IMG/VR virus record: IMGVR_UViG_3300030116_005122
Coordinates: 1-28,580 of that record
Direction: 5' to 3' (one strand)
Length of the DNA: 28,580 bases
Source of the DNA: a virus
The notes beneath the pieces are model-generated. The model was not told where the DNA came from and made no database searches. It was given only the letters and a program-made list of their open reading frames with translations. Shown here in pieces: positions 2,166 to 17,704 of the stretch. Position 1 is the stretch's first letter, and each line of letters starts with the position of its first letter. Both the position numbers and the translations under genes were made by a program.

Positions 2166-4667
2166 TCAAAAGAATTTGTTGAATCCAAAATTATCATTTG
2201 GTTCTTCCCAAGACAATGCTTCATATAACATTGTAATTTTTTTACTCAAACCTTGAGTGTAAATCTTATCAGTATTGATGTATTGTTTTATAAAATCTAA
2301 TGTTTCTTTAGGGTCTTCATGTCCCTTATAACAGATAGTCTCAAACTTGAATGGATTATCTTTTAGATATACCCACTTGATTTTTTCACCATTACCAATC
2401 GTCTGATACTTATTAGTTAGCTTGTTTATAAGTAAGAAGTTATTATAGTTTATAGCCGCCTTGATGTGTACAGGTGTTCCTTTTTTTGGCTGCATGATAT
2501 CACCACCCTTTTCAACATACTTCTTCACATTCTTTGCAGAAGTCGGCATAGCTATCGTGTCATAGTTCTTCAATTTCATTGAGTTCTTGAAGTTCAAAAT
2601 ATATTCATCAATTTTATGTTTAGGTACACTTGCTAAGATATCTTCTAATACTTTTGTTAGTGCTTCTTTCATAGCGATTGGGAAACTACTACGAACAATA
2701 TCTAAACCCTTTACGTGAAGTTTGTCTACCTTTACACCATTGTCATTGATAATCTTTAGACCATATCTTTTCTTAGTGACAAACAAACCACTTTTAGCAA
2801 TCAACTCTTGTTTGATTTCAAATCTATGTTTTTCTGTATTACAAAACTTTTTAGCGAACAAATCATAAGAATCATTTAAATACTTTTGTACGTCAGAAGC
2901 AATCTCTAAGATTTTTTCTGTCACCACATTTTCATCTTTGATATCTACGTGTGGATACTTCTTTTTGATGATAGGAATAGCAGAATAGAAAACTGAATCT
3001 GTATCAATATAGATACAATAATTGTCTTTATCACCCAAAGTTGAATTATAATAATGATTAGCCATCAATTTTGTATACTTGATAAGTTCAACGCCCGTAG
3101 TAGTGGTTGCTTCTGCATTATCTAAGTCATAGAAACGAAATACAGGCAAACCCAACACACCATACAATGAGTTTAGAACAACCTTTTGAATATATTGTCG
3201 TCTATCGAAGTATGCGTATTTCTCTTTATCACCCTCATCAGCGAATTTCTTTGCTAACTTTCTAAACTCAACTCTATCATCAAACCACTTCTCTAACAAT
3301 GTGGGAATCAAACCACGTTTTTCTTGATTATACATGACACCATTTGATGATACTGATACGTCATTATCTGTAAAAAATGATTTCATATCAGCTGATGACA
3401 TCTTAGCTTTTTCTTTACCATCATCATCCACAACCGAATATGTTTTATCTACCCCTTTGACAAACTCCTCTGCATTCCAACCAACCAATTTACCAAGTTT
3501 AGTTTCAGGCGATATGTTGAGAGTCATAATAATAGATGGATACATAGACGTAATATCTAAGTCATAAACCCATTCATGCTTACCTTTTATAGGATCCTGA
3601 ACGAATGCGCCTGAAAACTTATCGTCTCTACCCATCAACTCTCTGTTTTCCTTATTCTTATCAGGTGCTACAATACCAACTTTCTTCAGATAAACAAGTA
3701 TTGCACCCTCAAGAAATCTTGATGAGAAATAAACATTTTCATATGGTACGTGTCCTAAGTGACAAATAGCTCTAGCGATATTTATGAAGTCTAACTTTGC
3801 ATCCAACTTCTCAAGTATGATAACGTCATTGATGTTATATTTTACAAACCTATTTCTATCTGATTCGTATAAGTCATCAAGAGTTCCATCATAAGAAACT
3901 TTTTTCAACCCAACTTCTAACTCACCGATATCATCTAATCGATACGAAGACCTTTCACCAAAAGATAGTTTTTTATACAACTCAAGATAGTCAAGAGAAG
4001 ACACACCTGCAATCTTGTAAGTACCTGTTCTCTCTTGATAATCAACGATTCCGATTGGTGATAAACATTTGGCAGTCTCAGCACCCAAAACAACCATAGT
4101 TCTATTGTGTAGATATGGAACGTCAAACCTATCACTATTCCAACCACTAATGATTGTAGGACAGATTTCTAAATACTTTTCGAAAAACTTTTTGAGTAAA
4201 TCCTCTTCATAATCAAATCTCATAACTTCGGTTTCACCAAAGAGATTTGTATTTACTTTCTTTTCTTTATCAAGAACATAACAATAATATTTTTTAGTCA
4301 ACGCATCATAAAATGCAATAGAAGTTATTGCGTTTGCAGCTCTACTAACATCAGGAAAACCATCGGTGACTTCTACCTCAATATCAAAGAACATCACACG
4401 ATGTCCCTCAGACATCTCATCACTATCTGTATAGGTATCAACAAGAAATCTCATCTCAGGCATTACATCACTTTCAAATGCCTCATCATATTCCTTTGCT
4501 TGTCTTGGTGTAACCTTTTTCAACTTGTCTCCATATAAAGAAACAAACTGCCCACCCCTATCTTTCACATAAGCATAAGGTTTATAAGGAAATACTTGAT
4601 ACCCTTTTTTGTCATCCCATAAGTGTATACGGCGACGACTGTTTTCGAAGAAAATATTTTGGTAAAT
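2166..4667 (-). CDS. 43: family B replicative DNA polymerase, gp43-like (apparent ATT start)
   Basis: The replicative polymerase with 3'-5' proofreading, about 833 residues. Counting from the GTG at 4568, the motifs are Exo I FFDIEVEVTDGFPD (D62, E64), Exo II SGWNSDRFDVPYL (141-153), Exo III YNINDVIIL (244-252), polymerase motif A YDLDITSMYPS (335-345), motif B LNSLYG (465-470) and motif C YIDTDS (520-525). All catalytic residues are present. The C-terminus FGFNKFF resembles the clamp-binding tail of T4 gp43. The GTG at 4568 has no ribosome site and would remove a typical B-family N-terminus: the 33 codons before it read as coding (IHLWDDKKGY, then KPYAYV). The open frame starts after a TAA and contains no ATG, GTG or TTG before 4568. 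The best candidate is ATT at 4667, 6 nt after AAAGG and next to the upstream stop. Confidence 0.95.
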   Translation of the reverse strand: MYQNIFFENSRRRIHLWDDKKGYQVFPYKPYAYVKDRGGQFVSLYGDKLKKVTPRQAKEYDEAFESDVMPEMRFLVDTYTDSDEMSEGHRVMFFDIEVEVTDGFPDVSRAANAITSIAFYDALTKKYYCYVLDKEKKVNTNLFGETEVMRFDYEEDLLKKFFEKYLEICPTIISGWNSDRFDVPYLHNRTMVVLGAETAKCLSPIGIVDYQERTGTYKIAGVSSLDYLELYKKLSFGERSSYRLDDIGELEVGLKKVSYDGTLDDLYESDRNRFVKYNINDVIILEKLDAKLDFINIARAICHLGHVPYENVYFSSRFLEGAILVYLKKVGIVAPDKNKENRELMGRDDKFSGAFVQDPIKGKHEWVYDLDITSMYPSIIMTLNISPETKLGKLVGWNAEEFVKGVDKTYSVVDDDGKEKAKMSSADMKSFFTDNDVSVSSNGVMYNQEKRGLIPTLLEKWFDDRVEFRKLAKKFADEGDKEKYAYFDRRQYIQKVVLNSLYGVLGLPVFRFYDLDNAEATTTTGVELIKYTKLMANHYYNSTLGDKDNYCIYIDTDSVFYSAIPIIKKKYPHVDIKDENVVTEKILEIASDVQKYLNDSYDLFAKKFCNTEKHRFEIKQELIAKSGLFVTKKRYGLKIINDNGVKVDKLHVKGLDIVRSSFPIAMKEALTKVLEDILASVPKHKIDEYILNFKNSMKLKNYDTIAMPTSAKNVKKYVEKGGDIMQPKKGTPVHIKAAINYNNFLLINKLTNKYQTIGNGEKIKWVYLKDNPFKFETICYKGHEDPKETLDFIKQYINTDKIYTQGLSKKITMLYEALSWEEPNDNFGFNKFF

Positions 4668-4669
4668 AA

Positions 4670-4948
4670 CTAACCTTTCTTATTCATAGCTTCTACAGCT
4701 TTATCGTGTTTCAACACGTGTATAGGTTTACCTAAAGATTCTACCAACTCATCGTAGAATCCTAACTTTATAGATACATTCATAACTACTTGAATGTCAT
4801 CCCAACTTAGATTAGTAAACCATTCTAAATTTTCAATTTCAAGTAAACTAACTGCTTCACTCTTTGAGTAACCACCATCTAACAACATCGGATAAGTATA
4901 TCCTGTTTTTTCATCTATAAAAGTGCCAACTGATTGTAATTCAATCAT
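4670..4948 (-). CDS. hypothetical protein (92 aa)
   Basis: A soluble, mildly acidic 92-residue protein that I do not recognise. It has an N-terminal strand-rich part (about 1-30) and predicted helices afterwards (SKSEAVSLLEIENLEWF; DDIQVVMNVSIKLGFYDELVESLG), with no Cys and no obvious catalytic motif. Its ATG overlaps the previous stop as ATGA, with GGAG 8 nt upstream. Its own end sits 2 nt before the ATT start proposed for the DNA polymerase. Translation of the polymerase may therefore depend on ribosomes finishing this gene, and a regulatory role like that of T4 regA cannot be excluded. There is no sequence evidence for such a role. Confidence 0.75.
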   Translation of the reverse strand: MIELQSVGTFIDEKTGYTYPMLLDGGYSKSEAVSLLEIENLEWFTNLSWDDIQVVMNVSIKLGFYDELVESLGKPIHVLKHDKAVEAMNKKG

Positions 4949-5187
4949 ATTCCATACTCCAAATCTAATTTACCCTCTAACCATTCAGTTTCATTTTCTA
5001 TAGCTGAATAGTGATTTTGTAATTCTTCTAAAAGAGCTACTTGCTTTTCTTCAGACATATAAGATAACTTAGTAGGTTTACCTGCGTACCACATATCTAC
5101 AATCTTTATCTCATTATTGATAGAGCTAACAACATACTCCACTTTCAATGGAGCCAATAGCATTTCTTTTTCGAATACATAAGTCAT
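4945..5187 (-). CDS. hypothetical protein (80 aa)
   Basis: A small acidic protein of 80 residues, unrecognised. A longer frame begins at an ATG at 5202, but the ATG at 5187 is chosen because GAAGGG lies 7 nt before it, and the promoter at 5211-5242 would start transcription too close to 5202 for that codon to have a leader. The sequence begins MTYVFEKEMLLAPLKVEY and continues with short strands and one helix (SEEKQVALLEELQNHYSAIE). It has no membrane segment and no metal-binding cluster. It is the first gene of a short cluster leading into the DNA polymerase. Confidence 0.72.
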   Translation of the reverse strand: MTYVFEKEMLLAPLKVEYVVSSINNEIKIVDMWYAGKPTKLSYMSEEKQVALLEELQNHYSAIENETEWLEGKLDLEYGI

Positions 5188-5210
5188 ATTTATTCCCTTC
5201 ATTTACTAAC

Positions 5211-5242
5211 CAAATATAAGAATAAAATATGATACGTGTCAA
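5211..5242 (-). promoter_or_regulatory. Bacteroidota-type promoter (TTG-N21-TATATTTG)
   Basis: On the minus strand TTGACA (5242-5237) and TATATTTG (5218-5211) are separated, TTG to TA, by 21 nt, exactly as at 280-311. It also reads as a good sigma70 promoter (TTGACA, 18 nt, TATATT). The -35 element overlaps the stop codon of the 176-residue gene (GCT TGA CA). It would drive the two small genes and then polymerase, clamp and Mom-like protein. Confidence 0.7.
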
Positions 5243-5769
5243 GCCTTTTTTTGATAATTTTTTGGATAAACTTTTAATGTTTTTATCTCTTCCTCACTAA
5301 ATTTATCGAAATATTTTGTCTCTAATAACTTTCTATGAGCTTTATTTAGTTCTTCTGTTCCTGCGATATTGATTAGAAAATAAGGTGAACCTTTTCTTGT
5401 TTCTTCACCTGCTGCGGTGTGGTGTTCATAAGGTGAAAAGCATAGGGCTTTTATATCTGAATAACCCCTATCTTCCATAAGTAGCTGAATAGCTTTCTGA
5501 TACTTTCTTCTATCCACCTCTTCCCACAACAAACCATCCGTATTCATACATATCACTAAAGCAGATGTAAAATCACTATTTTCAAACTTTTCTAATATAT
5601 CTGTAAAAGATGATTCGTTTGGATACCAAATCTCAAACATCAACCCATCCTTTTCACGTTCTGCTTTTACAAACGGACATACAGGCATACCACCAAAGTT
5701 TTCATTTGGGATTTCAAGATACTCTGTAATCCAAGATTTTACTTCTGTTAGAATTTGTTTTTTATCCAT
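5239..5769 (-). CDS. hypothetical protein with CPF motif (176 aa)
   Basis: A soluble 176-residue protein that I cannot assign. It begins with a helix (KQILTEVKSWITEYLEIP), then N-x-N-FGGMPVCPFVK (residues 23-35), where a conserved-looking Cys-Pro-Phe follows a Gly-Gly turn. An alternating strand/helix part follows (FTSALVICMNTDGLLWEE), and the second half holds FSPYEHHTAAG with two adjacent His. The GMPVCPF context resembles a motif in uncharacterised phage and bacterial proteins, but I know no biochemical function. It follows the receptor gene and its terminator. There is no clear Shine-Dalgarno before the ATG at 5769, so expression may be low or depend on read-through. Confidence 0.75.
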   Translation of the reverse strand: MDKKQILTEVKSWITEYLEIPNENFGGMPVCPFVKAEREKDGLMFEIWYPNESSFTDILEKFENSDFTSALVICMNTDGLLWEEVDRRKYQKAIQLLMEDRGYSDIKALCFSPYEHHTAAGEETRKGSPYFLINIAGTEELNKAHRKLLETKYFDKFSEEEIKTLKVYPKNYQKKA

Positions 5770-5776
5770 AACATTT

Positions 5777-5805
5777 AAGAGAAAAGGGGGGAAATAAATC
5801 CCCCC
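5777..5805 (-). terminator. intrinsic terminator after the TonB receptor
   Basis: On the minus strand six G (5805-5800) and six C (5791-5786) form a stem with one extra A-T pair and a 6-nt loop. The run TTTTCTCTT follows directly. It begins 8 nt after the receptor stop codon. This is a textbook rho-independent terminator and would end the reductase-synthetase-receptor unit. Confidence 0.8.
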
Positions 5806-5813
5806 AAATCAAT

Positions 5814-8582
5814 TTAGAAATTGACAGTCAATCCTATGTTTGCATAACGTGGTGTTCCTAAGAATACCTCAGCGTTATGTGGTAGGTGAAGTTTATCACC
5901 GAAACCATTATAAGGTGAGTTGTCAACTGCGTCTTGTACATATAATGCATCAAGAGCGTTGAATACGTGACCTGTAATAGACATATCTAAACCACCAATC
6001 TTAGGTAGTTTGTATGAACCATGTAAGTCTAAACGATTATAGCCTGGTGCTTCCCAAACTTGTGCTCTATCTGCGTCTGCATCACTACCATCATACTCAC
6101 GTGCTGCAGGACTCCAATCAGCGTAGTTCTTTTCATACATCTTGAAAATACCTTGTAATCTAAGACCTTTGATTGGTGTAAGTGTTGCACCCAAGACATA
6201 AGAAGTCTGAGGTTGGTCACCTACGAACAATCCATCAAGTGCGTAGTTATATGGTGTCTGAGTAACTCCAATTACCTGACCTTCACTATTGTATTGGTCT
6301 TCTTGGTAGTTACCTTTTGCATCACCATCAAACTTCCAATTACCAAATGATACTGCTCCGTCTAAACGAATCATCTCATTGAGTTTCATAGAAGCTTCAA
6401 TCTCCATACCTTGATGTTTCTGATTGATACCTGATAGGAAGATAACATCAGTATCACCTGATGAACCTTGACCTGATTGTACTGCTTTAGTCAAGTTTCT
6501 ATCCATCCAATCAGTATTGTATACGTTTACTTTTACAGCAACGTTTTCTGTTTTGAAGTTTACACCAGCTTCAGTTGATAAGAATTTCTCATTATCAGGA
6601 TCGGAAGCGACTGTACCATCATAGTAGATTACGTTATCCATAATTGGTGGTTTCTGAACATATCCAGCGTTACCAAAGATAGATACATTGTCATCTACAT
6701 CATAAGTAGCACCACCCTTGACTTGGAAAGTCGAGATAGCGTCTGCTTTGATTACTTCGTTAGCTACTGTAAAATGGTCTTGGTAAGAATATTTGATACT
6801 TGATAATCCACCCATACCATAAACGTTTAGTTTATCGGCTGTGTAGTTACCTTGTAAAAATCCACCAATCCAATCAACCGTTGTTGAGTTGTGATAAGCT
6901 ATCTCATCACCTAAACGAACAACTTTACCATCAGGAGCGTTATCATCAGCGTAGTCTACGTAGTAATCACCACCAAGTAAATCACGAACTTCACGAGCGT
7001 GTTCAATACCTGCTGTTCTCCAATCAATACCAAATTGTAATTCAAGTTCATCACTAACAACGTGATTCAACTTAGAAATAACACCATAAGTGTTTTGACG
7101 ATTGATTGAGTTACGAAGAATACCCTTTGAACGATTCTCTGTTGGATGGAAGTTTGTATCTACTCTGTCTGAGTTGGTTGCGATAGCTGCATCCCAATCC
7201 CAACCCCACGGTGAGCTTCTGTACCACTTCTGTCCTTCAACAGCTGGTTTTCTGAACGAACTACCATAAGTTCCTGTACCACCACCTGAACCACCACTCC
7301 AATAAAATACAGAACTCAAACGAGTTTTATCTGTAAGAGTTAGGAAATGGTTGATGTTCATAAGTGGCTTGTGGAAGAAGTTCTCTCTTTCATTCAAGAA
7401 ATCAGAACTGTATCTATCACGTAGCCCTTTATCAAACAAACCACCGACACCATACATATACCAATATTGTTTACCCTTGTAGTCTGAACTAACTGAGCCC
7501 CAATTTTGGTTGAATGTACGACCTGCTTCGGTTTCGAACTTTGCACCCTCTGCGAAAGCACTGACATCATATCCATCGATATCACCTGCTAACTCTTGTG
7601 AGTAGGTAGCGATATTCTGTTTATATAGATTCTGTCCATGTCTTTGTGGTGCACCGACTATATATGCTTCAACTCTGTGTCCATCGTTTATTGCATATGT
7701 AGCTCCCATGTAGTATGCCCAAGCGTCTGTCCAAGTAGCGTCAATGATACCATCACCTGTCTTACGAACAAGTGTACCACTAAGTGCTAACTTATCATTC
7801 ATCATAAGACCTGTATTATAGTTCAAAGTAGTTTTCAAGAAACCACCTGCACCAAACTCTTGTTTATACTTACCACCTTTATCGAAAGCGGCAGGGTCGG
7901 TTATGATGTTCATAGTTCCACCAATAGATGGTGTAGCTAGGTTGACTGCTGATAAACCACGTTGCATCTGAATTGATGCAGCTGCGTCACCAACACCGTC
8001 CCAATTAGACCAATATACCCAACCATTTTCCATGTCGTTTTGAGGTACACCATTAATCATAACTGCTACGTTTCTTTGGTTGAATCCACGAACATTGATA
8101 CGGGCATCACCCGCACCACCACCTTGTTGTGTTGCATATACCGATGGAGTTGTATTGAGAACCATTGGAATATCTTGAGAACCAAGACGTACTTCCATAT
8201 CCTCTTTTGTTACCATCGAGTAAGCAACAGGTGTTTTTTCGTCAGCTCTTGAAGCTAGAACTTCAACGTCTGACAACTCTATCACACTCATTTCAAGTGC
8301 AAATGCCATATCAATTACAGCATCTGCTACTGTCACTTCTTGTGATAAAGGTTTGAATCCAATAACTGTCGCCGTAATTGTGTAGTTTCCTGCTTCCAAA
8401 TCAAGTGAAAATTCACCTGAATCATTTGAAGTAGTACCCATATCAGTACCTACCACAACAATATTAGCGTTAGCTAATGGGTCTCCTGCTTCTGATGTAA
8501 CTTTTCCTGTTACCGATTGTGCAAACAACATCATCGGTGTTAGTAGAGTCATCATCATAGCAATTAGATTACGATTTCTCAT
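5814..8582 (-). CDS. TonB-dependent outer-membrane receptor, full length
   Basis: A complete 922-residue TonB-dependent receptor, a cell-envelope gene that is very unusual in a phage. In order: a signal peptide (residues 1-21, with a Met-rich core AMMMTLLTPMMLFA), a CarboxypepD_reg-like beta-sandwich (about 23-105), a TonB-box-like LSDVEVLASRA (103-113), a plug domain (about 118-230, with INVRGF at 162-167, MINGVPQNDMENG at 175-187 and RGLSAVNLATPSIGGTMNI at 208-226), and a 22-strand-type barrel to the end, closing in LTVNF with the terminal Phe needed for outer-membrane assembly. AAGGAG lies 7 nt before the ATG. No SusD partner is adjacent, so glycan import of the Sus type is unlikely. The plug resembles Bacteroidota siderophore or ferric-citrate-type receptors; the ligand is unknown. 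Nothing suggests decay. Confidence 0.95.
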   Translation of the reverse strand: MRNRNLIAMMMTLLTPMMLFAQSVTGKVTSEAGDPLANANIVVVGTDMGTTSNDSGEFSLDLEAGNYTITATVIGFKPLSQEVTVADAVIDMAFALEMSVIELSDVEVLASRADEKTPVAYSMVTKEDMEVRLGSQDIPMVLNTTPSVYATQQGGGAGDARINVRGFNQRNVAVMINGVPQNDMENGWVYWSNWDGVGDAAASIQMQRGLSAVNLATPSIGGTMNIITDPAAFDKGGKYKQEFGAGGFLKTTLNYNTGLMMNDKLALSGTLVRKTGDGIIDATWTDAWAYYMGATYAINDGHRVEAYIVGAPQRHGQNLYKQNIATYSQELAGDIDGYDVSAFAEGAKFETEAGRTFNQNWGSVSSDYKGKQYWYMYGVGGLFDKGLRDRYSSDFLNERENFFHKPLMNINHFLTLTDKTRLSSVFYWSGGSGGGTGTYGSSFRKPAVEGQKWYRSSPWGWDWDAAIATNSDRVDTNFHPTENRSKGILRNSINRQNTYGVISKLNHVVSDELELQFGIDWRTAGIEHAREVRDLLGGDYYVDYADDNAPDGKVVRLGDEIAYHNSTTVDWIGGFLQGNYTADKLNVYGMGGLSSIKYSYQDHFTVANEVIKADAISTFQVKGGATYDVDDNVSIFGNAGYVQKPPIMDNVIYYDGTVASDPDNEKFLSTEAGVNFKTENVAVKVNVYNTDWMDRNLTKAVQSGQGSSGDTDVIFLSGINQKHQGMEIEASMKLNEMIRLDGAVSFGNWKFDGDAKGNYQEDQYNSEGQVIGVTQTPYNYALDGLFVGDQPQTSYVLGATLTPIKGLRLQGIFKMYEKNYADWSPAAREYDGSDADADRAQVWEAPGYNRLDLHGSYKLPKIGGLDMSITGHVFNALDALYVQDAVDNSPYNGFGDKLHLPHNAEVFLGTPRYANIGLTVNF

Positions 8583-8660
8583 ATCGAATCTCCTTGTTAT
8601 TATTTAACACGACACATTTTTCAACAGGTGTGTCTACTGCCTGTATGGTATGTGAAATTT
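8583..8660 (-). promoter_or_regulatory. synthetase-receptor spacer with a GACACA dyad
   Basis: This 78-nt gap holds an inverted repeat, GACACA (8611-8616) and TGTGTC (8629-8634), with a 12-nt centre. It sits about 30 nt before the receptor ATG. No T-run follows, so it is not a normal terminator, and no convincing -35/-10 or TAnnTTTG box is present. It could be a small RNA hairpin or an operator that sets receptor expression separately from the synthetase. The receptor is probably co-transcribed with the two genes before it. Confidence 0.35.
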
Positions 8661-9665
8661 TTAGCGACATACAGTCTCAATTAGTTTTTGACTTACTAAA
8701 TAAGGGTCACAATTAGCAGATGGTCTTCTGTCTTCTAAGTATCCACGTTTTTCTACACCAACTTGCCACGGAATACGAATAGAAGCTCCTCTATCAGATA
8801 TTCCATAACGAAACTCAGTTATACTACAAGTTTCATGCAAACCTGTAAGTCTCTTATTGTTATCTACACCATATACATCAATATGTTCTTGTGGATTTTT
8901 AGATAACTTCTCACAAGCTTCGATTATTTTATCATAACCATCATCTTCTCTCATCTCTTTCGTAGAGAAGTTTGTATGACAACCTGCTCCATTCCAATCA
9001 CCCTCTATTGGTTTTGGATTTAGAGATACTGTTACGTCATATTGCTCACAAATTCTTTCTAACAACCAACGAGCCACCCATAAGTCATCACTCATGTCTA
9101 CTGCTCTACCTGCTCCAATCTGATACTCCCATTGACCTAACATCACTTCTGCATTTGTACCACAAATACTAATACCTGCATCAATACAAGCATCTAAATG
9201 TTCTTTACTGATACTTTCTCCTGCATTTCTACCACAATAATAATCTCCTTGTGGTGGTGGTGTACCAATTTCAGGCCAACCTAAAGGTTTTCTTGTTTTG
9301 TTGTTGAATAGAGTATATTCTTGTTCAAAACCTACCCACTCTTCATCTCCATCTTCAAGAGTATCAATTAATTTTTTTCTTGTATTTGAAACGTGTGGTG
9401 ATGTATCTACGTTATAAACTTCACATAAGATAATTGTGCTATTTTCTTCTAATGGGTTTATGTAAGTCTTGATTGGTTTCAACACACAATCTGAATTATC
9501 TCCGTTTGCTTGTTGTGTTGAACTTCCATCGAATCCCCACAATGGGTCGAATCCCCATTCAGGTGCTTCGTGATTTCTATGATAAAACTCTTTTACAACC
9601 TTTGTTTTACTTCTGATTGTTGTTGGTGTACAACCGTCCAACCATAAGTATTCTAACTTTTGCAT
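8661..9665 (-). CDS. glnII: glutamine synthetase, GSII (beta-grasp, eukaryotic type)
   Basis: A 334-residue type II glutamine synthetase, which joins ammonia and glutamate to glutamine with ATP. The length matches GSII (about 330-370) rather than GSI (about 470). Signatures: GFDGSST (44-50), FEQEY with metal ligands E114 and E116, NAEV (E173), QWEYQ (E180), GCHTNFS (H230), GLHET (E278) and SDRGASIRIP (290-299) followed by YLEDRRP (E311). All expected metal and substrate residues are intact, so it should be active. It starts 10 nt after the reductase stop with AGGAG 7 nt before the ATG. GSII lacks the GSI adenylylation site, so the enzyme would escape that host control. I do not know GSII as a usual phage gene; a host origin is likely. 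Confidence 0.95.
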   Translation of the reverse strand: MQKLEYLWLDGCTPTTIRSKTKVVKEFYHRNHEAPEWGFDPLWGFDGSSTQQANGDNSDCVLKPIKTYINPLEENSTIILCEVYNVDTSPHVSNTRKKLIDTLEDGDEEWVGFEQEYTLFNNKTRKPLGWPEIGTPPPQGDYYCGRNAGESISKEHLDACIDAGISICGTNAEVMLGQWEYQIGAGRAVDMSDDLWVARWLLERICEQYDVTVSLNPKPIEGDWNGAGCHTNFSTKEMREDDGYDKIIEACEKLSKNPQEHIDVYGVDNNKRLTGLHETCSITEFRYGISDRGASIRIPWQVGVEKRGYLEDRRPSANCDPYLVSQKLIETVCR

Positions 9666-9675
9666 TTATGTACTC

Positions 9676-11688
9676 CTAATTTGCATAATCTTGGTCATCA
9701 TTATCACCATGAGTAGGAATGACTTCCACATCACAGAAATCACCATCACAGAATTTCTCTATGTTAGCTTCTTCTGCTTTTATAACTCCAAAGGATAATT
9801 TACCAAGTTTTTTTACTTGTTTCTTATACTCTTTTTCTTCAATCGATTCATAAGGCATTTGTGGATACGCTCCATAATCATGTCGTGGTAACAATGATAT
9901 ACCTTTTAGATGATACTGATAGTAATTCAAACATGGTTCTATCTGATTACCCTCTGTCTCAGGATCGAATGTTACAGTACAACTAACCTGATTGTCTGCC
10001 CAATGTCTTTGCATAAACGCTGCTATGCTAAATTGTTCCCATATGGAGAGTTCCCCCGCTGTCCTAATTCCCTCTCCAACATCTACAGGAACTTCTACAA
10101 CACAAGTTGTATCTTCTGAACCAAATGCAGGTTCTATCTTGTAACCTGCTTTCTTCATTGGTTCTATCAAATCTGAATGTTTAGATAGTCTAATTCTCCT
10201 AATATAGAATCTACTTTCGGGATAATGTAAGCCTGGAGTAGCACCAGCCAATAATGAGACTGTACCACTTGGTTTAACTGAAGTAGTCTTAATTGACTTT
10301 GGAACAGCAAACCAATCAGAATATTGTTTATCCCACTCTTGAATAACGTCATATCCGTTCTCCAACCAATCTCTCAATTCATTGAGACCTCTGTTTGTGA
10401 TAAATTGAGCAACACCACTAACTGAACAACCGATTCTTCTGTTTCTCAACATGACTCTGTTTGTATCAGCCCAATGTGTTCTACCAAGTGTAACTGTTTT
10501 AGCATACAAATAAGCATACTTTAGTGTACGAGCATAGTCTTCAAAATCATCGTGGTTGCTTGGAAATGTTTCTACAAGACAACACAACTCATATGATTCA
10601 AGTGTTTGTTCAAGACAAGGATTACCACCCATAGCTCTGTAATCTTTATCATCACCACCATTCTTCATCCTTGAGTAATGTCTCATGTTATCTAACCAAG
10701 CAAAACCTGGCTCACCATTGTCTACAATACGTTTTGCAGCTTCTGTATAATCCATACCAAGTTCAGCAAATATACTATTGTTAGATGTCCAACCATATTG
10801 GTCACGATGTGGATTCACTTCATAATTTTTCAAGTCTAAGTATTCTTCTGAATCAGGATCTCCAAATACAATCTCAGCAGTTCTTCTTACATTACCTGCT
10901 ACAACACATTTACCGATTAGATTCATTATATCTACGATCGTAGTTACTGTGATTGGTTCCCCACTATTTTTTTCTAAAACTTTTCTGATATCTCCATGAA
11001 CTTCTTCCAATGGTTCGGGACCTGAACTAACACCACCAAAACCCTTGATTGGTTCACCAGCTGGCCTTACCTCTGAGTAATCAAATTTCACTTCGGCTTG
11101 TCCATGAAAATAACTTTCTAATAATAATCTAAGAGATTCTACCCAACCCTCACGAGTATCAGGTATAATAAACATTGTTTCCCTTGTTTTATCAACACCC
11201 TTGACAACTATCTCACCAGCACCCTTAGTATCAAAACCGACACCAACACCTAACATAGATGCATCCATGAGGAAACAGAATGGTTTTGAGTAGTCTTCTT
11301 TGATTGTTGATGTTGATACGAATGCACAATTATTTAGAGCTGCGTATAATCCTTTTTCTTCTGTCACAGGTGTTCCCATAGCCCACAAACCACGGCCAGG
11401 AGGTAAGAACTTCATGTTGAAAATTCTATCATACATTTCTTGTGCTGACTTCTGAGCTTGCCAAGCGTTCCAACCTAACTGATGAGATTCAATCCAATTC
11501 TTTTGCATCGTGTAGGTTCCCTCAACAACACGTTGAACAGTCTCCCACCATCTCTCATTTTTACCATTCTCTTTAATACGAGAATATGTTCGCATATAAA
11601 CTAACTCACCTAATCCATTGAAACCAAAGGGTGCTTTCTTTCGCTTGTACTTGTCTATAAACTTTTCCGATAACTGAAATTTATCCAC
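9676..11688 (-). CDS. nrdJ: adenosylcobalamin-dependent ribonucleoside-triphosphate reductase (class II)
   Basis: A 670-residue monomeric class II reductase closely patterned on Lactobacillus leichmannii RTPR (739 residues). It makes dNTPs from NTPs with a cobalamin-generated thiyl radical and needs neither oxygen nor an iron subunit. Landmarks: redox Cys C121 (LNNC), the radical site NPCLE (C358, E360), the partner Cys C369 in ELCCLVETFP (11 residues on, as in RTPR), KTTSVKPSGTVSLLAGA (467-483), and the C-terminal shuttle pair CDGDFC (C647, C652). All essential Cys are present. The start is GTG at 11688 with AGGAG 6 nt upstream. It opens the module that continues with glutamine synthetase and the TonB receptor. 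No NrdB-like subunit is needed or seen. Confidence 0.95.
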   Translation of the reverse strand: MDKFQLSEKFIDKYKRKKAPFGFNGLGELVYMRTYSRIKENGKNERWWETVQRVVEGTYTMQKNWIESHQLGWNAWQAQKSAQEMYDRIFNMKFLPPGRGLWAMGTPVTEEKGLYAALNNCAFVSTSTIKEDYSKPFCFLMDASMLGVGVGFDTKGAGEIVVKGVDKTRETMFIIPDTREGWVESLRLLLESYFHGQAEVKFDYSEVRPAGEPIKGFGGVSSGPEPLEEVHGDIRKVLEKNSGEPITVTTIVDIMNLIGKCVVAGNVRRTAEIVFGDPDSEEYLDLKNYEVNPHRDQYGWTSNNSIFAELGMDYTEAAKRIVDNGEPGFAWLDNMRHYSRMKNGGDDKDYRAMGGNPCLEQTLESYELCCLVETFPSNHDDFEDYARTLKYAYLYAKTVTLGRTHWADTNRVMLRNRRIGCSVSGVAQFITNRGLNELRDWLENGYDVIQEWDKQYSDWFAVPKSIKTTSVKPSGTVSLLAGATPGLHYPESRFYIRRIRLSKHSDLIEPMKKAGYKIEPAFGSEDTTCVVEVPVDVGEGIRTAGELSIWEQFSIAAFMQRHWADNQVSCTVTFDPETEGNQIEPCLNYYQYHLKGISLLPRHDYGAYPQMPYESIEEKEYKKQVKKLGKLSFGVIKAEEANIEKFCDGDFCDVEVIPTHGDNDDQDYAN

Positions 11689-11806
11689 TAATAACTCCTG
11701 TATTTATTTGTTTTCCGTATACATTAGATAAGTATTATATATACTTCTCTTATGAGTTGAATATATATTTTTTTTTACTATTTATATGAAATTTTTCTGA
11801 TGAGTT
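11689..11806 (-). promoter_or_regulatory. helicase-reductase spacer with candidate promoter
   Basis: This 118-nt AT-rich gap holds an exact TATAAT (11739-11734) with a weak -35 (TTCAAC, 11761-11756, 16-nt spacer). The -10 lies inside a perfect dyad AAGTAT-N5-ATACTT (11746-11730), so a regulator could bind over it. A T4 late-type TATAAATA sits at 11786-11779, but that octamer also occurs inside genes here, so it is weak evidence. Any of these would serve the reductase-synthetase-receptor unit. Confidence 0.4.
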
Positions 11807-13180
11807 TTATTCAAACCCATCTGTGCTTGTATCATTCATATCATTGTACTTACTTGCCAACAATCTCCGTTGAAATTCACTACTATTATCCATCTTCTTT
11901 TGCTGTTCTTTACCTGAATAACTCAAGCTTTCATGCACTTCTATTTTACCAATATTTGTATTCATTGTCATGGGATAGTTTATACCATCCTGCCCAAATC
12001 TATTTTTGATAACGTGTGCTCTTGCGGTGTGACTAATTTTGTCTTCAGGCTTTCTACTGATTGACATGACAAAATCAGCTGTCATTACTTTAGAATAAGC
12101 TTCTGCGACTTTTGATGCGTCAATATATTCTTCTTCTAAAGCTGAACGATTAGCTTGTGATGCAGTCCATATTGGAACTTTCCATTCACCTGCTAACCCC
12201 CTCAAATTTTCATAGATACTACCTAACTGATGTCTCATCTCCCTCGCACCACTATTATCTCTCAAGATATCTGCATAATCTACAACTATCAAATCAGGAT
12301 TGATACCTTTGATTTCTAATTGTTTCATATGTGCATCAAGCGTATTTACTGTAGCTGAACGTGTTGGATAGTATTTTATCAGAAGTTGACCCTCAAGTGT
12401 ATCTATAATCTTTTTTACTTCATCTTTCTGATACTTGATATTTTGTGTTGTGACACCACTAAATATCGCATCATATCTCAAACCAACATAAGTTTCATTC
12501 AACTCTAAAGTATAATGAACTGCTGTAAAACCTTTCTTTACAGCGCCCGCAGCGATACATTGTAATAACCAAGTCTTTCCTATACCTGCGGGCGCTACTA
12601 CGACTCCTAACTCACCCTCACCTAAACCACCGTCCATGATATCATTTATGACATCCCACGGCGTTTTGATTGTAACCCTTGTAGCTTTGGTGAGCCTCTC
12701 CTCTATACCAACATTATAATCGTGACCTATATCGACAGGTGTACCTGCTTTCATAGCATTATCGATAACAGTCTTTATATCATCATAATTTTGATTTTCT
12801 AATAAATTTACACTTTCCATAATAGCTGACTTTAGAACTTGATTCTTACAGAAGTCAAGAGATTTTTCTTTTACAAATTCTAAATCTGCAGCTTCTCTAT
12901 TTCTCCAAGCATCTTTCAAACCCTCAATAATACTAAGTTTTAGAACTTCATTGTCTACTGAATCAACGGATATTTTTAGTGCTTCTAATGTAGGTGTTGT
13001 TTTATATTTTATAAAGTAATTTTGTATTTCTTCGACTAACCACTTATTTGAATCACTTTCGAAATACTCAGGCTTGATTATCTCCATAATAGTTTGTAGA
13101 TAAACTGAATCATTCAGAAAACAAGATATTACTTTTGATTGGAAACTTGTTCCGAATGATTGTAAACTATTACTCTCCAT
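11807..13180 (-). CDS. 41: replicative DNA helicase, gp41/DnaB-like
   Basis: A hexameric RecA-fold helicase that unwinds DNA ahead of the polymerase. Numbering from a GTG at 13186 (459 residues): an N-terminal helical domain (about 1-150), Walker A APAGIGKT (198-205), LELN after strand 2 (the glutamate region), Walker B LIVVDYADIL (299-308), and WTASQANR plus a C-terminal Arg-finger region (DFVMSISRK) typical of DnaB/gp41. The GTG at 13186 is possible, but ATG at 13180 (457 residues) is preferred because AAGAG lies 5 nt before it. The start overlaps the end of the small basic gene. Primase (gp61) is not in the window. The helicase follows the exonuclease and UvsX in one dense operon. Confidence 0.9.
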   Translation of the reverse strand: MESNSLQSFGTSFQSKVISCFLNDSVYLQTIMEIIKPEYFESDSNKWLVEEIQNYFIKYKTTPTLEALKISVDSVDNEVLKLSIIEGLKDAWRNREAADLEFVKEKSLDFCKNQVLKSAIMESVNLLENQNYDDIKTVIDNAMKAGTPVDIGHDYNVGIEERLTKATRVTIKTPWDVINDIMDGGLGEGELGVVVAPAGIGKTWLLQCIAAGAVKKGFTAVHYTLELNETYVGLRYDAIFSGVTTQNIKYQKDEVKKIIDTLEGQLLIKYYPTRSATVNTLDAHMKQLEIKGINPDLIVVDYADILRDNSGAREMRHQLGSIYENLRGLAGEWKVPIWTASQANRSALEEEYIDASKVAEAYSKVMTADFVMSISRKPEDKISHTARAHVIKNRFGQDGINYPMTMNTNIGKIEVHESLSYSGKEQQKKMDNSSEFQRRLLASKYNDMNDTSTDGFE

Positions 13181-13349
13181 ATACACTCTTTGACTTTTGG
13201 CTTTTATAAATACTAATTTTTTTATCTCTATATTTTTTTCTTGCTTTTTCTAATATCTCATCTCTGTTACGTTGGTAATATTCCATTTGCCACTTTCGTT
13301 GTGCGTCTTTCTTTTCTTTTTGGGTGTGATATATTTTCTTTCTACCCAT
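13170..13349 (-). CDS. small basic protein (59 aa) between RNase H and helicase
   Basis: A complete 59-codon frame fills a gap that would otherwise be 155 nt. It starts with ATG at 13349 and ends with TAA at 13170-13172. It overlaps the stop of the RNase H gene by 8 nt (ATGGGTAG) and the helicase start by 11 nt, a packing typical of real genes here. The product begins MGRKKIYHTQKEKKDAQRKW and is very rich in Lys, Arg, Gln and Tyr, with a predicted helix carrying DEILEKARKKYRDKK. A highly basic helical protein could bind DNA or RNA, or load a replication factor (T4 gp59 does this but is much larger). I cannot name the family with certainty. Confidence 0.72.
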   Translation of the reverse strand: MGRKKIYHTQKEKKDAQRKWQMEYYQRNRDEILEKARKKYRDKKISIYKSQKSKSVYGE

Positions 13350-14403
13350 TTGTAACCTGTGCGTATTTATCTAAAGTAGTAAATGTTTGTGATAACCAAC
13401 TACTGATGTTTGGAAGATTTTGAAACAATCTATCTTCCATAAATTGACTTTCGAACTTGAACTTGATAAGTCGGTTGATTGGTTGTCGAACAATGTCGAG
13501 TAACTTTGTTTTAGTTGAACCACTTATATCAACATCCGAAAGTTGCATAAGTTTATAGTTCCTCTCTAACAACTCTTTATTCTGTAATACTTTCACAAAA
13601 AAAGCACCACCCTCATCTTTGTGTTGTAAAGCATATTTATAAACTTCATCCAATGTATAAGTATTATCTTCGTTAGCCAAAGTAGGCATGTTTTTTACTA
13701 AAGTTTTAGTGGCAACTCCCTTTACTCCGTTTATATTATCAGACTTGTCTCCTTCAAATACTTTAGCCATTATAAAGTTGTTTGCTGTCACGCAATATTC
13801 CTCTAACACACTCTGTTTATCATACAATTTTTTTCTTGTTGGTGACCAAACTTTAACATTGTCATTGACGAGTTGTAAGAAATCCTTATCAGTTGACATA
13901 ATAATTTTATCACCATCTCCTAAAGCGTTTCTTGTAAGATACGCTATAGCATCATCTGCTTCTATTCCATCTACTGATATTGAAGTAACAGGTAATAGTT
14001 CAAGGTAATCAACGATACGACGTAGTTGTACTCTCATACTACGTTTCTCATCCTCAAGGTTTTCTAAACCCTCTAATCTATTGACACGATACGATGTACG
14101 TCTTCGTTGCTTGTAATCAGAAAATATCTTTCTTCGTCTACTACTACCACCTTTACCATCGAATACTATGATTACTCTTGATGGATTGAACATATTGATG
14201 GCATATCCAAGACTCTGTAAGAATCCGACTATGCCACCAACATGAACTCCGTTTTCGTTCACAGTCGGCATTACGCTGAATACTCTAATAAAAGTATTCA
14301 AGCCGTCGACTATTAGAACTCGCTTGTTCGGTTCATCGTAATCAACCGAACCACCTTTTTTCTTTATCTCATTTAGGATTGAAAGATATCTTGCATTAGT
14401 CAT
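13342..14403 (-). CDS. rnh: 5'-3' exonuclease, T4 RNase H/FEN-1-like
   Basis: A 353-residue flap nuclease of the T4 RNase H type, which removes RNA primers and 5' flaps on the lagging strand. The acidic metal-site residues appear in order: VDGLNTF (D33), VFDGKGG (D82, followed by RRRKIF), VDGIEADDAIAYL (E148, D150, D151), STDKDFLQL (D172, D174) and GDKSDNINGVKG (D219, D222) with the helix-hairpin-helix after it. All are intact. The ATG at 14403 overlaps the UvsX stop by 8 nt, so expression is coupled to recombination. The N-terminal 25 residues before the first strand are an extension I cannot interpret. T4 RNase H is 305 residues, so this version has an insert or tail of about 50. Confidence 0.92.
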   Translation of the reverse strand: MTNARYLSILNEIKKKGGSVDYDEPNKRVLIVDGLNTFIRVFSVMPTVNENGVHVGGIVGFLQSLGYAINMFNPSRVIIVFDGKGGSSRRRKIFSDYKQRRRTSYRVNRLEGLENLEDEKRSMRVQLRRIVDYLELLPVTSISVDGIEADDAIAYLTRNALGDGDKIIMSTDKDFLQLVNDNVKVWSPTRKKLYDKQSVLEEYCVTANNFIMAKVFEGDKSDNINGVKGVATKTLVKNMPTLANEDNTYTLDEVYKYALQHKDEGGAFFVKVLQNKELLERNYKLMQLSDVDISGSTKTKLLDIVRQPINRLIKFKFESQFMEDRLFQNLPNISSWLSQTFTTLDKYAQVTNG

Positions 14404-15493
14404 CTAATACTTCTTCTGTCTCCACAACATCATCAATTCCTAAATCTTTCATGTCGTATTGAAGAACAAGCTTTTCGCAAATTTGTTGATAAACATATTC
14501 CTTGAGTTCTGCATCTTGTAATAGTTCAGCGAACTCTTTGGATTGAAACTTGTGTTCTTCACCTAAGTGGTCTACAAGTGTGTACCATGCACCTGAACCT
14601 TTTACTATCTTATGGTCTTTCATCACTTTCAACCAACTACCAACATCATCAATACCACTTTCAAAATAAAGTGGAAATTCACAACTTCTCAAAGGAGGAC
14701 CCAATCGATTTTTTATTACTTGTGCAAGTATTGTCATTCCGATTGTATTATTCTTTTTGTCCTTTATTTGTCCTTTGTTCTTTAGTCTAATTCTTGTAGA
14801 GGAATGGAATGGTAATGCTTTTCCACCACTTGTAGTCCACGGGTCTCCAAACATCACTCCAAGTTTTTGACGTAACTGATTTGTAAACACAAGAGCTATC
14901 TTTTGTCTACCAATCATTTGAGTGACTTTTCTCATAGCTTTAGAAATGATGATTGCTTTAGATGTTGCAAAACCATCTTTATCAAAATCTGCATCCATCT
15001 CAATTTTTGTTGAAGCTGCTGCTAATGAATCAACAAGGATTGTAACCAATCTGTTCTTATCACTTTCACGAACTTTTACAACTATCTCTTCTATAGCCTG
15101 AAATATATCCTCTACAGTTTCTAAGTGTAGATATAACATACTATTTATATCCACACCAATTACTTTTAGAAAATCTTGACTTACGGCGGTTTCAGTATCG
15201 ATATATACTGCAACTCCACCTTTCTTTTGAGTTTCTGCGAGTAGGTGTGCACCTACTAACGACTTACCACTTGACTCTAAACCATTGATTTCTGTAATTC
15301 TACCCACAGCAATACCACCATTTGGTCGATTAGCAACTGCTAAATCTAACAACGTGGAACCTGTAGAAATAAAATCTTTTATATCAGTTGGTGTTGTATC
15401 ACTACCATCAAGGAAGTAAGCAACTTTCGTATCCTTGAACTGCTTATTTAGACTTGAAGCAAGTTCTGAGGCTAATGTGTCTCTTGTAGACAT
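14396..15493 (-). CDS. uvsX: UvsX/RecA-type recombinase
   Basis: A 365-residue RecA-family recombinase that coats single-stranded DNA and drives strand invasion, which T4-like phages use to start replication and repair breaks. Walker A is GLESSGKS (71-78). The catalytic-Glu region is IDTETAVS (98-105) and Walker B is LVTILVDS (149-156). The L2-type segment is VFTNQLRQKLGVMFGDP, followed by TTSGGKALPFHSSTRIRL. The C-terminus is acidic (VVETEEVLDD), as is common in recombinases that interact with SSB and mediators. AAGGAG lies 6 nt before the ATG. It follows the SSB gene across a G/C hairpin. Confidence 0.95.
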   Translation of the reverse strand: MSTRDTLASELASSLNKQFKDTKVAYFLDGSDTTPTDIKDFISTGSTLLDLAVANRPNGGIAVGRITEINGLESSGKSLVGAHLLAETQKKGGVAVYIDTETAVSQDFLKVIGVDINSMLYLHLETVEDIFQAIEEIVVKVRESDKNRLVTILVDSLAAASTKIEMDADFDKDGFATSKAIIISKAMRKVTQMIGRQKIALVFTNQLRQKLGVMFGDPWTTSGGKALPFHSSTRIRLKNKGQIKDKKNNTIGMTILAQVIKNRLGPPLRSCEFPLYFESGIDDVGSWLKVMKDHKIVKGSGAWYTLVDHLGEEHKFQSKEFAELLQDAELKEYVYQQICEKLVLQYDMKDLGIDDVVETEEVLDD

Positions 15494-15516
15494 TCACTTC
15501 TCCTTATATTAGAAAC

Positions 15517-15543
15517 GGGGGGATAGAGCGAATCGTATCCCCC
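15517..15543 (-). terminator. strong stem-loop between SSB and uvsX
   Basis: An 8-bp perfect stem, GGGGGATA pairing with TATCCCCC, encloses a 10-nt loop, between the SSB stop and uvsX. On the minus strand it is preceded by a run of A and followed only by CGTTTCT. The long T-run follows it on the plus strand, where no gene is seen. In the direction of transcription it is therefore a weak terminator at best. It more likely trims or stabilises the SSB mRNA so that uvsX is expressed at a lower level. Confidence 0.55.
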
Positions 15544-15551
15544 ATCTTTTT

Positions 15552-16307
15552 TTACTTATTGAACAAATCGTCAAAAGCTGAAGATACATCCTCAGTAGCT
15601 TTTGGAGCCTCAGTTTTATTAGAGGTTTCCTCTGCTGATTCTTCTGTCTCTTCATCTTCACTTGGATTTAGCCAAGCGTTCAACACTTCTGTCAAATCTT
15701 CATAAGATAACTCATTATAGATATCTGTAATGTTTGTCTGATTGTCTGTGATGGTTTGTAAGAGACTTGCATCTTCGGTTATCGGAGTTTGATTCGGTTT
15801 TACTCGGATACTTGTTTTAGGAAAAGAAGCTCCAACTTCTTCTGCCGTCTTGAATTCGACTGCGATGTCACGACCATTCATTGGATCGGTAATGTCACCA
15901 TAATCGGGATCGGCAATGATAGAAAGAAGTTCTTGGTAAACAGTTTTACCAAAGCCCCAAAACTTCACACCTTGATTTTCTTCACCTCTGACAATGATTG
16001 GAGCGAAAGTTCTCATTTTAGCTTCAATCTTACGGGCGAGACGATAGTCTTCTTTGTTACCCGAAGCTTTTAGCTTTTGAGAAAACTCTTCGATTGGGTC
16101 AGGACGACCGAATGAAACAGGTGAAAGATATGACTTACTACCCAAATCGTAATGAAAGAACAATTCAATGAAAGGATTATCCTTATTGAATGCGTAAGGA
16201 ACCACTCGGATGACAGTTGTGCCAGGCGATGGTTTCCAAAGATTTGAGGTTCTGTTATTGGTGGTTTGAAGTTGATTGAGACGCTTCTTCAGTGCGTTAA
16301 TATCCAT
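15552..16307 (-). CDS. 32: single-stranded DNA-binding protein, gp32-like, without zinc site
   Basis: A 251-residue SSB of the T4 gp32 type. It covers single-stranded DNA and organises the replication and recombination proteins. Layout: a basic N-terminal assembly segment (INALKKRLNQLQ), an OB-fold core (LWKPSPGTTVIRVVPY, IELFFHYDLGSKSYLSP, FAPIIVRGEENQGVKFWGFGKTVYQEL) and an acidic tail from about residue 212, ending SSAFDDLFNK. There is no Cys, so the zinc-binding CxxC part of T4 gp32 is absent and replaced by SFGRPDPIEEFSQKL. AAGGAG lies 6 nt before the ATG in an A-rich leader. Placement before uvsX supports the call. Confidence 0.88.
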   Translation of the reverse strand: MDINALKKRLNQLQTTNNRTSNLWKPSPGTTVIRVVPYAFNKDNPFIELFFHYDLGSKSYLSPVSFGRPDPIEEFSQKLKASGNKEDYRLARKIEAKMRTFAPIIVRGEENQGVKFWGFGKTVYQELLSIIADPDYGDITDPMNGRDIAVEFKTAEEVGASFPKTSIRVKPNQTPITEDASLLQTITDNQTNITDIYNELSYEDLTEVLNAWLNPSEDEETEESAEETSNKTEAPKATEDVSSAFDDLFNK

Positions 16308-16364
16308 TTGATACTCCTTATTTATTATTATTCATTTGTTATTTGTTATTGGGTGAAACCTTCA
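16308..16364 (-). promoter_or_regulatory. SSB mRNA leader, candidate self-repression operator
   Basis: The 5' leader holds AATAACAAATAACAAAT (16350-16334) and then AAT/AATA steps up to the AAGGAG ribosome site. It has almost no G and no stable structure. Just upstream TGAAGGTTTCA (16364-16354) can make only a tiny stem. In T4, gp32 represses its own translation by binding such an unstructured A/U-rich leader. The resemblance is visible; the function is inferred. Confidence 0.4.
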
Positions 16365-16371
16365 TTCAGTA

Positions 16372-16397
16372 ATATATATCATATATATTTTTCAAAA
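16372..16397 (-). promoter_or_regulatory. candidate phage promoter element TTTTGAA-N8-ATGATATATAT
   Basis: TTTTGAA (16397-16391), 8 nt, then ATGATATATAT (16382-16372) on the minus strand. This is the same arrangement as before the clamp gene. Here the second word is part of a perfect palindrome, ATATATAT-G-ATATATAT. It lies 64 nt before the SSB ATG in the longest gap of the window. Confidence 0.4.
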
Positions 16398-16432
16398 CGT
16401 GTTTTTTTTAATTCTTTTTCTATCCTCTATAC

Positions 16433-17704
16433 TTAGCTATAGTCTGTAACTTCTACCCAAGTTGGTAGCCCCGTATCATTTGTAGTTAATGTTCCATTGT
16501 TACTATTAGTCGAATGGTCAATAACAGTAGTTCCACTACCCTCATTGAATTTCCAATATCCTACAAGATTAGCAGTGTGACTATTAGTCAAATGATTGTA
16601 ATTAGTTCCAGCGTTATATACTTCACTAGCAAAAGTGCCCTCCGAATCAATACATTTATTGTAGATAGCCACTTCATCAAGTGCACAAGCGAATCCGCTA
16701 GTATATCCTGAACCCTCGGTGTTACGTCCCCCAAAATATATTCCATGAGTGTAACTTTCAGTAGCTTCATCTTGATTATTCCAAGAAGTGCTGTTATTAT
16801 TAGTCATTCTTGCATCTGTATTTATCCACATTCTGAGTTTTCTTTCTCCTGCATCAAATTGAGTACCTGTATACGATATTACCCAATTATACCATCTACC
16901 TATTTCCATTGGATTGCTAATTCCCGTAACATCATTACCACCAACACCTACTCCAATATTATTGACACCTGCACCTGAAAATCCGAAGTGAAATCTTGCT
17001 ACAGGACTACTAGCTCTAGTACCTAATATAACTGATTTTTGATTCATTTCTTCATCTGGCCTAACCCAAAATGAAATAGTAAATCCGTTCCAAAGTGAAT
17101 AAGTATCAGGATTAAAGTTGGTTGATACAAATGTTTCTGTAGCTCCGCTTCTGTCACCTGAAAATGAAAGTGCATAATTTTCTTGTGTAACTGCTCCACC
17201 ACCTCGTGATATTTTTCTATCTTCAAAATTTCTTCGTATATATTCGGTAGTGGCGTTGTAAACGTCTTTAGCTATGCTTTCATTCATTTCATACAAATAT
17301 CTATTCTCAGGTATCAATAACCAACTTTTGAAATCCAATTTTCGACCACCTTGTTTTTTTCTTCCAACGGTTGTCAATAGAGGTATTATCTTTGTATCTA
17401 TAACTTTTACTTCACCAAGAATTGTTTTAACGTTGCCTTTATATTTTGATGATAAAGTAACTTTATTTTCTAACCAACCTGATTCCTTCAATTCTCCTAA
17501 AATATTAGATTTTTCTTTTTGTAATATAGAAATTTGATTTTTTAATTCAAGTATTTCTTCCTCTAAGTTATTAATAATCGCATCTTTTCCATAAATACGA
17601 TTTTCTAATGTATCAACGGAAGCAAATAAGTTGTCAGTATAATCAATATTTTGTGACTCAGGATGTAATTTGTCAAACTTTTCTATTTCTTTTTTTAAAC
17701 TCAT
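16433..17704 (-). CDS. coiled-coil protein with LamG-type lectin domain
   Basis: About 423 residues from the ATG at 17704 (428 if the ATG at 17719 is used). The shorter form is preferred because a GAAG lies 6 nt before it and the upstream gene ends just before; the longer form has no usable ribosome site. With 428-residue numbering, residues 45-75 form a coiled coil (NNLEEEILELKNQISILQ). Residues 95-170 are an unassigned basic part (GRKKQGGRKLDFKSWLLIPE), followed by SRGGG. Residues 181-428 are a LamG/concanavalin-like jelly roll (YALSFSG, FTISFWVRPDE, WYNWVISYTG, ALDEVAIYNK, VGYWKFNEGSGTTVIDHS). Such domains bind sugars and occur in phage tail or capsid decoration proteins, so a surface adhesin is likely. 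The lack of a signal peptide agrees with a virion protein. Confidence 0.8.
   Translation of the reverse strand: MSLKKEIEKFDKLHPESQNIDYTDNLFASVDTLENRIYGKDAIINNLEEEILELKNQISILQKEKSNILGELKESGWLENKVTLSSKYKGNVKTILGEVKVIDTKIIPLLTTVGRKKQGGRKLDFKSWLLIPENRYLYEMNESIAKDVYNATTEYIRRNFEDRKISRGGGAVTQENYALSFSGDRSGATETFVSTNFNPDTYSLWNGFTISFWVRPDEEMNQKSVILGTRASSPVARFHFGFSGAGVNNIGVGVGGNDVTGISNPMEIGRWYNWVISYTGTQFDAGERKLRMWINTDARMTNNNSTSWNNQDEATESYTHGIYFGGRNTEGSGYTSGFACALDEVAIYNKCIDSEGTFASEVYNAGTNYNHLTNSHTANLVGYWKFNEGSGTTVIDHSTNSNNGTLTTNDTGLPTWVEVTDYS

Follow-up and report, generated by a model that had tools for sequence, protein, structure and literature searches.

The DNA analysed here carries a gene for a complete outer-membrane receptor of bacterial type in a viral genome, which raises the questions whether the gene really belongs to the phage, where it came from, and what it could do in an infected cell. 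Auxiliary genes known from phages mostly encode enzymes or small carriers. The window, i.e. the whole stretch of 28,580 bp that was analysed, is an entire virus record, and all recognisable genes are located on its minus strand.

Receptor gene and its surroundings in the phage genome

The gene for the TonB-dependent receptor (TBDR), its signals and the neighbouring genes are listed in Table 1. Plug and barrel both scored above the curated Pfam cut-offs (PF07715, 53 bits vs 23.9; PF00593, 1.6e-15 and 50.3 bits vs 27). In an alignment of 26 phage and 24 bacterial sequences, the TonB-box core E107-R112 (EVLASR, within SDVEVLASR) is invariant, as is the greater part of the plug (69 of the 112 residues at positions 121-232), and the terminal F922 is conserved in at least 90% of the 50 sequences. 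An AlphaFold2 model shows a TBDR barrel (mean pLDDT 70, pTM 0.67), and searching with this model by Foldseek led to solved TBDRs, namely PqqU (4e-26), Fiu, FhuA, FoxA and FecA. The protein therefore has the plug, barrel, TonB box, C-terminal aromatic residue and fold of about 22 strands that define a TonB-dependent receptor, the fold being taken from a model of moderate confidence with a poorly modelled plug and the strands being counted by hand from its DSSP line.

Table 1. Features of the receptor locus (window positions; all on the minus strand)
Feature	Position	Strand	Remarks
TonB-dependent receptor (TBDR) gene	5814..8582	-	Complete ORF, ATG start, 922 aa; Pfam, alignment, model, Foldseek
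Signal-peptide-like N-terminus, residues 1-21	8520..8582	-	Hydrophobic stretch (MRNRNLIAMMMTLLTPMMLFAQ) after Arg residues; read without dedicated predictor
CarboxypepD_reg-like N-terminal domain, residues 24-108	8259..8513	-	Pfam CarbopepD_reg_2 PF13715, 1.1e-17
TonB-box segment DVEVLASRA, residues 105-113	8244..8270	-	Core invariant in phage and host copies
Plug domain, residues 115-223	7914..8240	-	Pfam PF07715, 5.5e-14
Beta-barrel, residues 236-922	5817..7877	-	PF00593, AlphaFold2 model; about 22 strands, C-terminal Phe
Ribosome-binding site AAGGAG	8590..8595	-	7 nt before TBDR ATG
Intrinsic terminator stem-loop GGGGGG-ATTTATTT-CCCCCC, then TTTT	5786..5805	-	8 nt past TBDR stop
GlnII-type glutamine synthetase (GS)	8661..9665	-	NCBIfam NF041605, 444 bits, below its cut-off of 500
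Adenosylcobalamin-dependent (class II) RNR	9676..11688	-	TIGR02505, 369 bits vs cut-off 340; phrog_367
Three small genes between TBDR and polymerase	4670..5769	-	92, 85 and 176 aa; last weakly DUF6875-like
Family B DNA polymerase	2166..4568	-	phrog_262, 1.2e-185

Phage genes were found on both sides of the TBDR, with GS, class II RNR, DnaB, exonuclease, UvsX and gp32 upstream and the DNA polymerase and a Mom-like gene downstream. Pfam and PHROGs thereby revealed a T4-type replication set (gp43-type polymerase, UvsX, gp32, DnaB-like helicase). The nearest named polymerase is that of Microcystis phage Mel-JY01 (47%), followed by those of T4-like cyanophages (about 31%). Among structural genes, one baseplate wedge match is present in the record, and the capsid genes are located outside of it. 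The third-position GC of the TBDR is inside the range of the remaining phage genes. The hairpin behind it is the sole GGGGG/CCCCC hairpin in the window, and terminator-like hairpins are kept behind phage TBDR genes, with the strict pattern in 59 of 93 phage copies. An initial annotation had described a complete host-type receptor with a strong ribosome site amid phage replication genes. This description was confirmed, including the CarboxypepD_reg-like domain, TonB-box-like segment, plug, barrel and terminal Phe (Pfam, alignment); the signal peptide stands as a hydrophobic, signal-peptide-like stretch, and the structure prediction proposed there supported the barrel but resolved the plug poorly.

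Two further genes of the window were noted. The gene for the Mom-like DNA modification protein (638-1390; phrog_1384, 1.6e-45) recurs in this part of the genome in related phages, some of which have two copies. A 424-aa protein (20227-21501) without a PHROGs match resembles in sequence the palm region of family A DNA polymerases; the phage already has a family B polymerase.

A chimeric assembly or a prophage edge in a bacterial chromosome, against which the initial annotation had cautioned, was rejected because independent contigs carry both borders of the TBDR, and the window is a whole virus record. The GS/TBDR border is crossed by two contigs from other metagenomes, L141 (97.2%, 7422-16207) and L142 (96.5%, 7449-16549), and the border on the downstream side by L007 (81.5%, 5213-8661).

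A cargo slot between RNR and polymerase

Relatives of the TBDR were detected on at least 304 viral contigs in a scan of IMG/VR, the best 80 of which stem from about 65 metagenome identifiers (hand count). Across 116 distinct phage loci, the interval between RNR and polymerase contains a TBDR in 77, either alone (66), followed by GS (9) or preceded by GS (2), while GS alone was found in 19 loci and neither gene in 20. In every TBDR-bearing locus of this set the TBDR is co-directional. Because TBDR and GS had themselves served in part to assemble these loci, the count was redone on loci picked by RNR alone. With 73 of these showing downstream sequence, the next gene was a TBDR in 63, GS in 8 and the polymerase in 2; this selection comprised the 80 loci nearest to the RNR of the window, and the TBDR share may drop further out. 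The RNR-polymerase interval is a cargo slot, which can be empty or contain TBDR, GS, or both in either order, and the TBDR is almost core in this phage group. The view that outer-membrane transporters are not normal phage cargo was thus too strong, all the more since other phage TBDRs have been published (PMC9723777, PMC8857322).

The phages whose polymerases come nearest to that of the window (77-80%, L220-L239) have an empty slot, with an RNR-polymerase gap of only 181 bp in L220, the nearest TBDR-less relative; the TBDR is also absent from L498 and L499. The TBDR of the window is closest to that of L014 (80%), yet the polymerase of L014 is just 56% like that of the window. Since the polymerase kin have an empty slot and the TBDR kin has a distant polymerase, the cassette appears to be exchanged or lost within the phage group. 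Relatives of the GS of the window were found on at least 251 viral contigs, and GlnII with 51-59% identity is present in 49 of 120 Marinimicrobia genomes. In a further contig (L031:2453-9900), the DnaB and RNR matches are broken up by inserts of kilobase size, as introns or inteins would produce.

Origin of the receptor and presumed host

Bacterial relatives of the TBDR with 53-71% identity belong almost all to Ca. Marinimicrobia. The 71% match, L082, and also L130 are phage contigs inside wrongly named bins ('Flavobacteriales' and 'Euryarchaeota', respectively); both contigs belong to the phage group, and their bin names are probably binning errors. In a tree of 60 rows, all 27 of 27 phage representatives were placed on one side of a single branch (SH-aLRT 99). 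When nine divergent outgroup sequences were added, the phage clade (100) was nested inside Marinimicrobia as sister to the group of L092, L098 and L104, in a tree obtained by quick search and with long outgroup branches. Repeated independent captures, hinted at by phage/host mixing in a first FastTree run, were rejected as the mixture-model tree gave one clade. Because the sampled phage copies without exception fall into a single clade within the Marinimicrobia receptors, the simplest reading, which we favour, is a single capture from Marinimicrobia-type bacteria followed by descent and exchange among phages. The tree proposed in the initial annotation thereby narrowed the source of the host-type receptor to the clade of Ca. 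Marinimicrobia.

The bacterial orthologue stands alone beside genes for HMCES, tRNA, YqeY/CvpA/DnaG or Lon (gene names by eye). Since it is a stand-alone gene next to HMCES, tRNA or DnaG-CvpA-YqeY genes, it has the appearance of a general chromosomal gene and not of a member of a polysaccharide locus. A polymerase of this phage type was found in none of 245 Marinimicrobia genomes, and phage contigs binned with Marinimicrobia, none of which has a close polymerase, provided no link to the host. The phage TBDR, whose tree is the sole source of the host placement, points to the Marinimicrobia (Fidelibacterota, SAR406), a major phylum of uncultured ocean bacteria, as the likely host or, at a minimum, the donor of the gene.

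Possible roles and comparison with known systems

The phage TBDRs are under purifying selection (median dN/dS 0.13 in 58 close phage pairs). This value, the fixed slot, the occurrence in many independent data sets, the own terminator and the gene borders on independent contigs all contradict a functionless passenger picked up by chance or assembly error, for which nothing but the absence of the TBDR from some relatives speaks; its probability is close to nil and it is effectively refuted. The TBDR is a host-derived gene in a genuine phage genome that is kept by selection, as is required for an auxiliary metabolic gene, with expression and action on the host during infection being predictions.

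Our best explanation, which taken as a whole is probably but by no means certainly correct, is that a T4-like marine phage lineage captured a Marinimicrobia-type TBDR once, keeps it as slot cargo, and would use it as a transport-competent receptor for import of the ligand of the host orthologue. The receptor would be made during infection together with the products of the replication and nucleotide genes. Sec would export it, BAM would insert it, and the TonB-ExbB-ExbD motor of the host would energise it. By importing the conserved ligand that the host orthologue also takes up, it would top up the uptake of a limiting nutrient during copying of phage DNA; GS from this slot would contribute to nitrogen supply. 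The phages thus probably add an uptake channel of their own to infected cells. Against a transporter it has to be considered that producing an outer-membrane protein of 922 aa demands much time and resources within one infection cycle, and that the close relatives without TBDR named above manage without it.

The extracellular loops help to discriminate between import and a role at the cell surface. The predicted loop motifs APQRHGQNLYKQN, YWSGGSGGGTGTYG and WRTAGIEHAREVRDLLGG are common to phages and hosts nearly letter for letter. The ratio of loop to strand divergence is 1.02 in phages (half-sample 0.97-1.08) and 1.31 in bacteria (1.23-1.38) without overlap, based on pairs that are not independent and on strand limits from the moderate model, and the contrast persists at matched strand divergence. 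Only 4 phage-specific fixed differences were found, none of them in an extracellular loop. Such divergence ratios are expected if phages and toxins drive loop change in bacteria while ligand binding holds the loops of the phage copies.

TBDRs are classical phage receptors, and small phage-encoded blockers exist, such as Llp of T5, which blocks FhuA. A phage copy might accordingly replace or dilute the entry receptor of the host and exclude rivals, or reduce the trapping of progeny. The FhuA-Llp and FhuA-T5 pb5 structures are among the Foldseek matches, and the receptor from which the phage copies derive has the appearance of a conserved surface protein with a general role in the presumed host. 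A decoy should, however, differ or evolve fast at its surface, whereas the phage loops are more conserved than those of the hosts at matched strand divergence and free of phage-specific fixed differences, and an export-competent TonB box and plug are retained without exception in the 50 sequences. Because of the loop conservation we regard a decoy as unlikely. Of the three roles initially proposed, ligand import fits best, since the phage copies retain the TonB box and plug, have loops in common with the hosts and evolve under purifying selection; replacement of a lost receptor and blocking of rivals are without support in the loop data.

The conservation of the loops makes a phylum-wide ligand likely. 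Several assignments were tried and rejected: BtuB (NF007926, 29 bits vs cut-off 836); the SusC/RagA subfamily and thereby a polysaccharide ligand (TIGR04056, 63.5 bits, far under the cut-off of 368), with no SusD-like partner recognised in a general survey of the phage neighbours and the clustered host neighbours; and a ligand derived from the fold, as the matches are generic (13% identity) and the model has a pLDDT of 70. A PDB sequence search with the receptor gave plug-level or domain-level matches only (9gbc).

Since a class II RNR adjoins the TBDR, which is its direct neighbour in 63 of the 73 RNR-picked loci, a BtuB-like receptor feeding cobalamin to this adenosylcobalamin-dependent enzyme was also considered. 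Nine of 10 Marinimicrobia genomes tested contain one cobalamin riboswitch each, which, where the downstream gene was readable, is located directly 5′ of a different receptor of about 700 aa, and zero cobalamin riboswitches were found within 15 loci holding the host orthologue. Because the readable riboswitches precede a different receptor, cobalamin supply is highly improbable; the low BtuB score and the existence of phages that have this RNR and lack the TBDR also argue against it.

Some phages of the group additionally encode a secreted mini-TonB of 104-122 aa, consisting of signal peptide and TonB C-terminal domain (E 1e-10 to 1e-14) without membrane anchor and linker. It was found in 5 of 38 long records of the phage group that were not picked for mini-TonB (2 of 8 and 3 of 30); sites in relatives are L391:1387-1701 and L392:1372-1695, with further ones in L396-L399, L402, L403, L404 and L405. 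TonB_C proteins of Marinimicrobia, the presumed host phylum, are larger open frames of 130-546 aa. Exported periplasmic domains of TonB reportedly inhibit TonB function in E. coli. With such a gene at hand, receptor and mini-TonB together could occupy or block the Ton machinery of the host and bar TonB-dependent phages, bacteriocins or competitors. We consider this very unlikely, as mini-TonB was undetected in most TBDR-carrying records (many of them fragments), and as a complete receptor would be a costly way to sequester TonB, a task for which conserved ligand loops are not needed. A broader remodelling of host import, in which the own receptor and in some genomes a free TonB C-terminal domain, a potential competitor of the host TonB, reroute Ton traffic and shut out rivals, is likewise suggested by the secreted mini-TonB and appears quite unlikely. 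Two to three genes upstream of mini-TonB, type IV pilin-like genes are present (L394:6093-6536, L398:2726-3166, L399:540-980); they contain the prepilin motif GFTLIELVMV, and another pilin-like gene is adjacent. Small MscS-like membrane proteins (~111 aa, motif EDDVVEVDGSPGRI) are also encoded near mini-TonB (L393:7545-7880, L394:4830-5171).

Import of the host ligand remains our preferred reading. In an abundant group of marine phages, a complete energised transporter of the outer membrane is almost a core trait, and infected cells may import dissolved nutrients via a virus-coded door, which would bear on models of ocean nutrient flow. The clean slot states (TBDR, GS, both, none) offer a natural experiment on the limits of phage production.

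Phage TBDRs were known before; the lineage, the slot and the Marinimicrobia origin were not found in the literature searched, which included few subscription papers. TonB is absent from the main text of a worldwide survey of auxiliary genes in ocean phages (PMC11360552), and a search largely without subscription journals and preprints returned no report of a TonB receptor coded by a virus of Marinimicrobia. The marine megaphage Mar_Mega_1 (LR745206) likewise carries a TBDR, which is SusC-like and was proposed as an uptake gene (PMC9723777). A0A8D9FQQ5, annotated as 'TonB-dependent receptor SusC' of an uncultured marine phage, is probably of the same kind. These receptors differ from the one described here, with 12% identity in the structural match for A0A8D9FQQ5 and 27% over the plug for LR745206; they come from single megaphage genomes, and a conserved cargo slot was not described (PMC9723777). 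Virus bins of gut Bacteroidetes share the same Pfam domains (TonB plug and barrel), but come from a gut setting with Bacteroides and Alistipes as predicted hosts and are known as enriched domains only (PMC8857322). The siderophore and cofactor receptors PqqU, FhuA, FoxA and FecA have the same fold. Their ligands are not transferable because identity is 11-15% and the phage protein is longer and has the additional N-terminal CarboxypepD_reg-like domain. The stand-alone TBDRs of Marinimicrobia (L085, L098, L104) are homologous over the full length (57-68% identity in the alignment) and have the same domains, TonB box, plug and loop motifs as the phage TBDR; unlike the latter, they are chromosomal, located beside HMCES, tRNA or DnaG genes, and their surface loops diverge faster.
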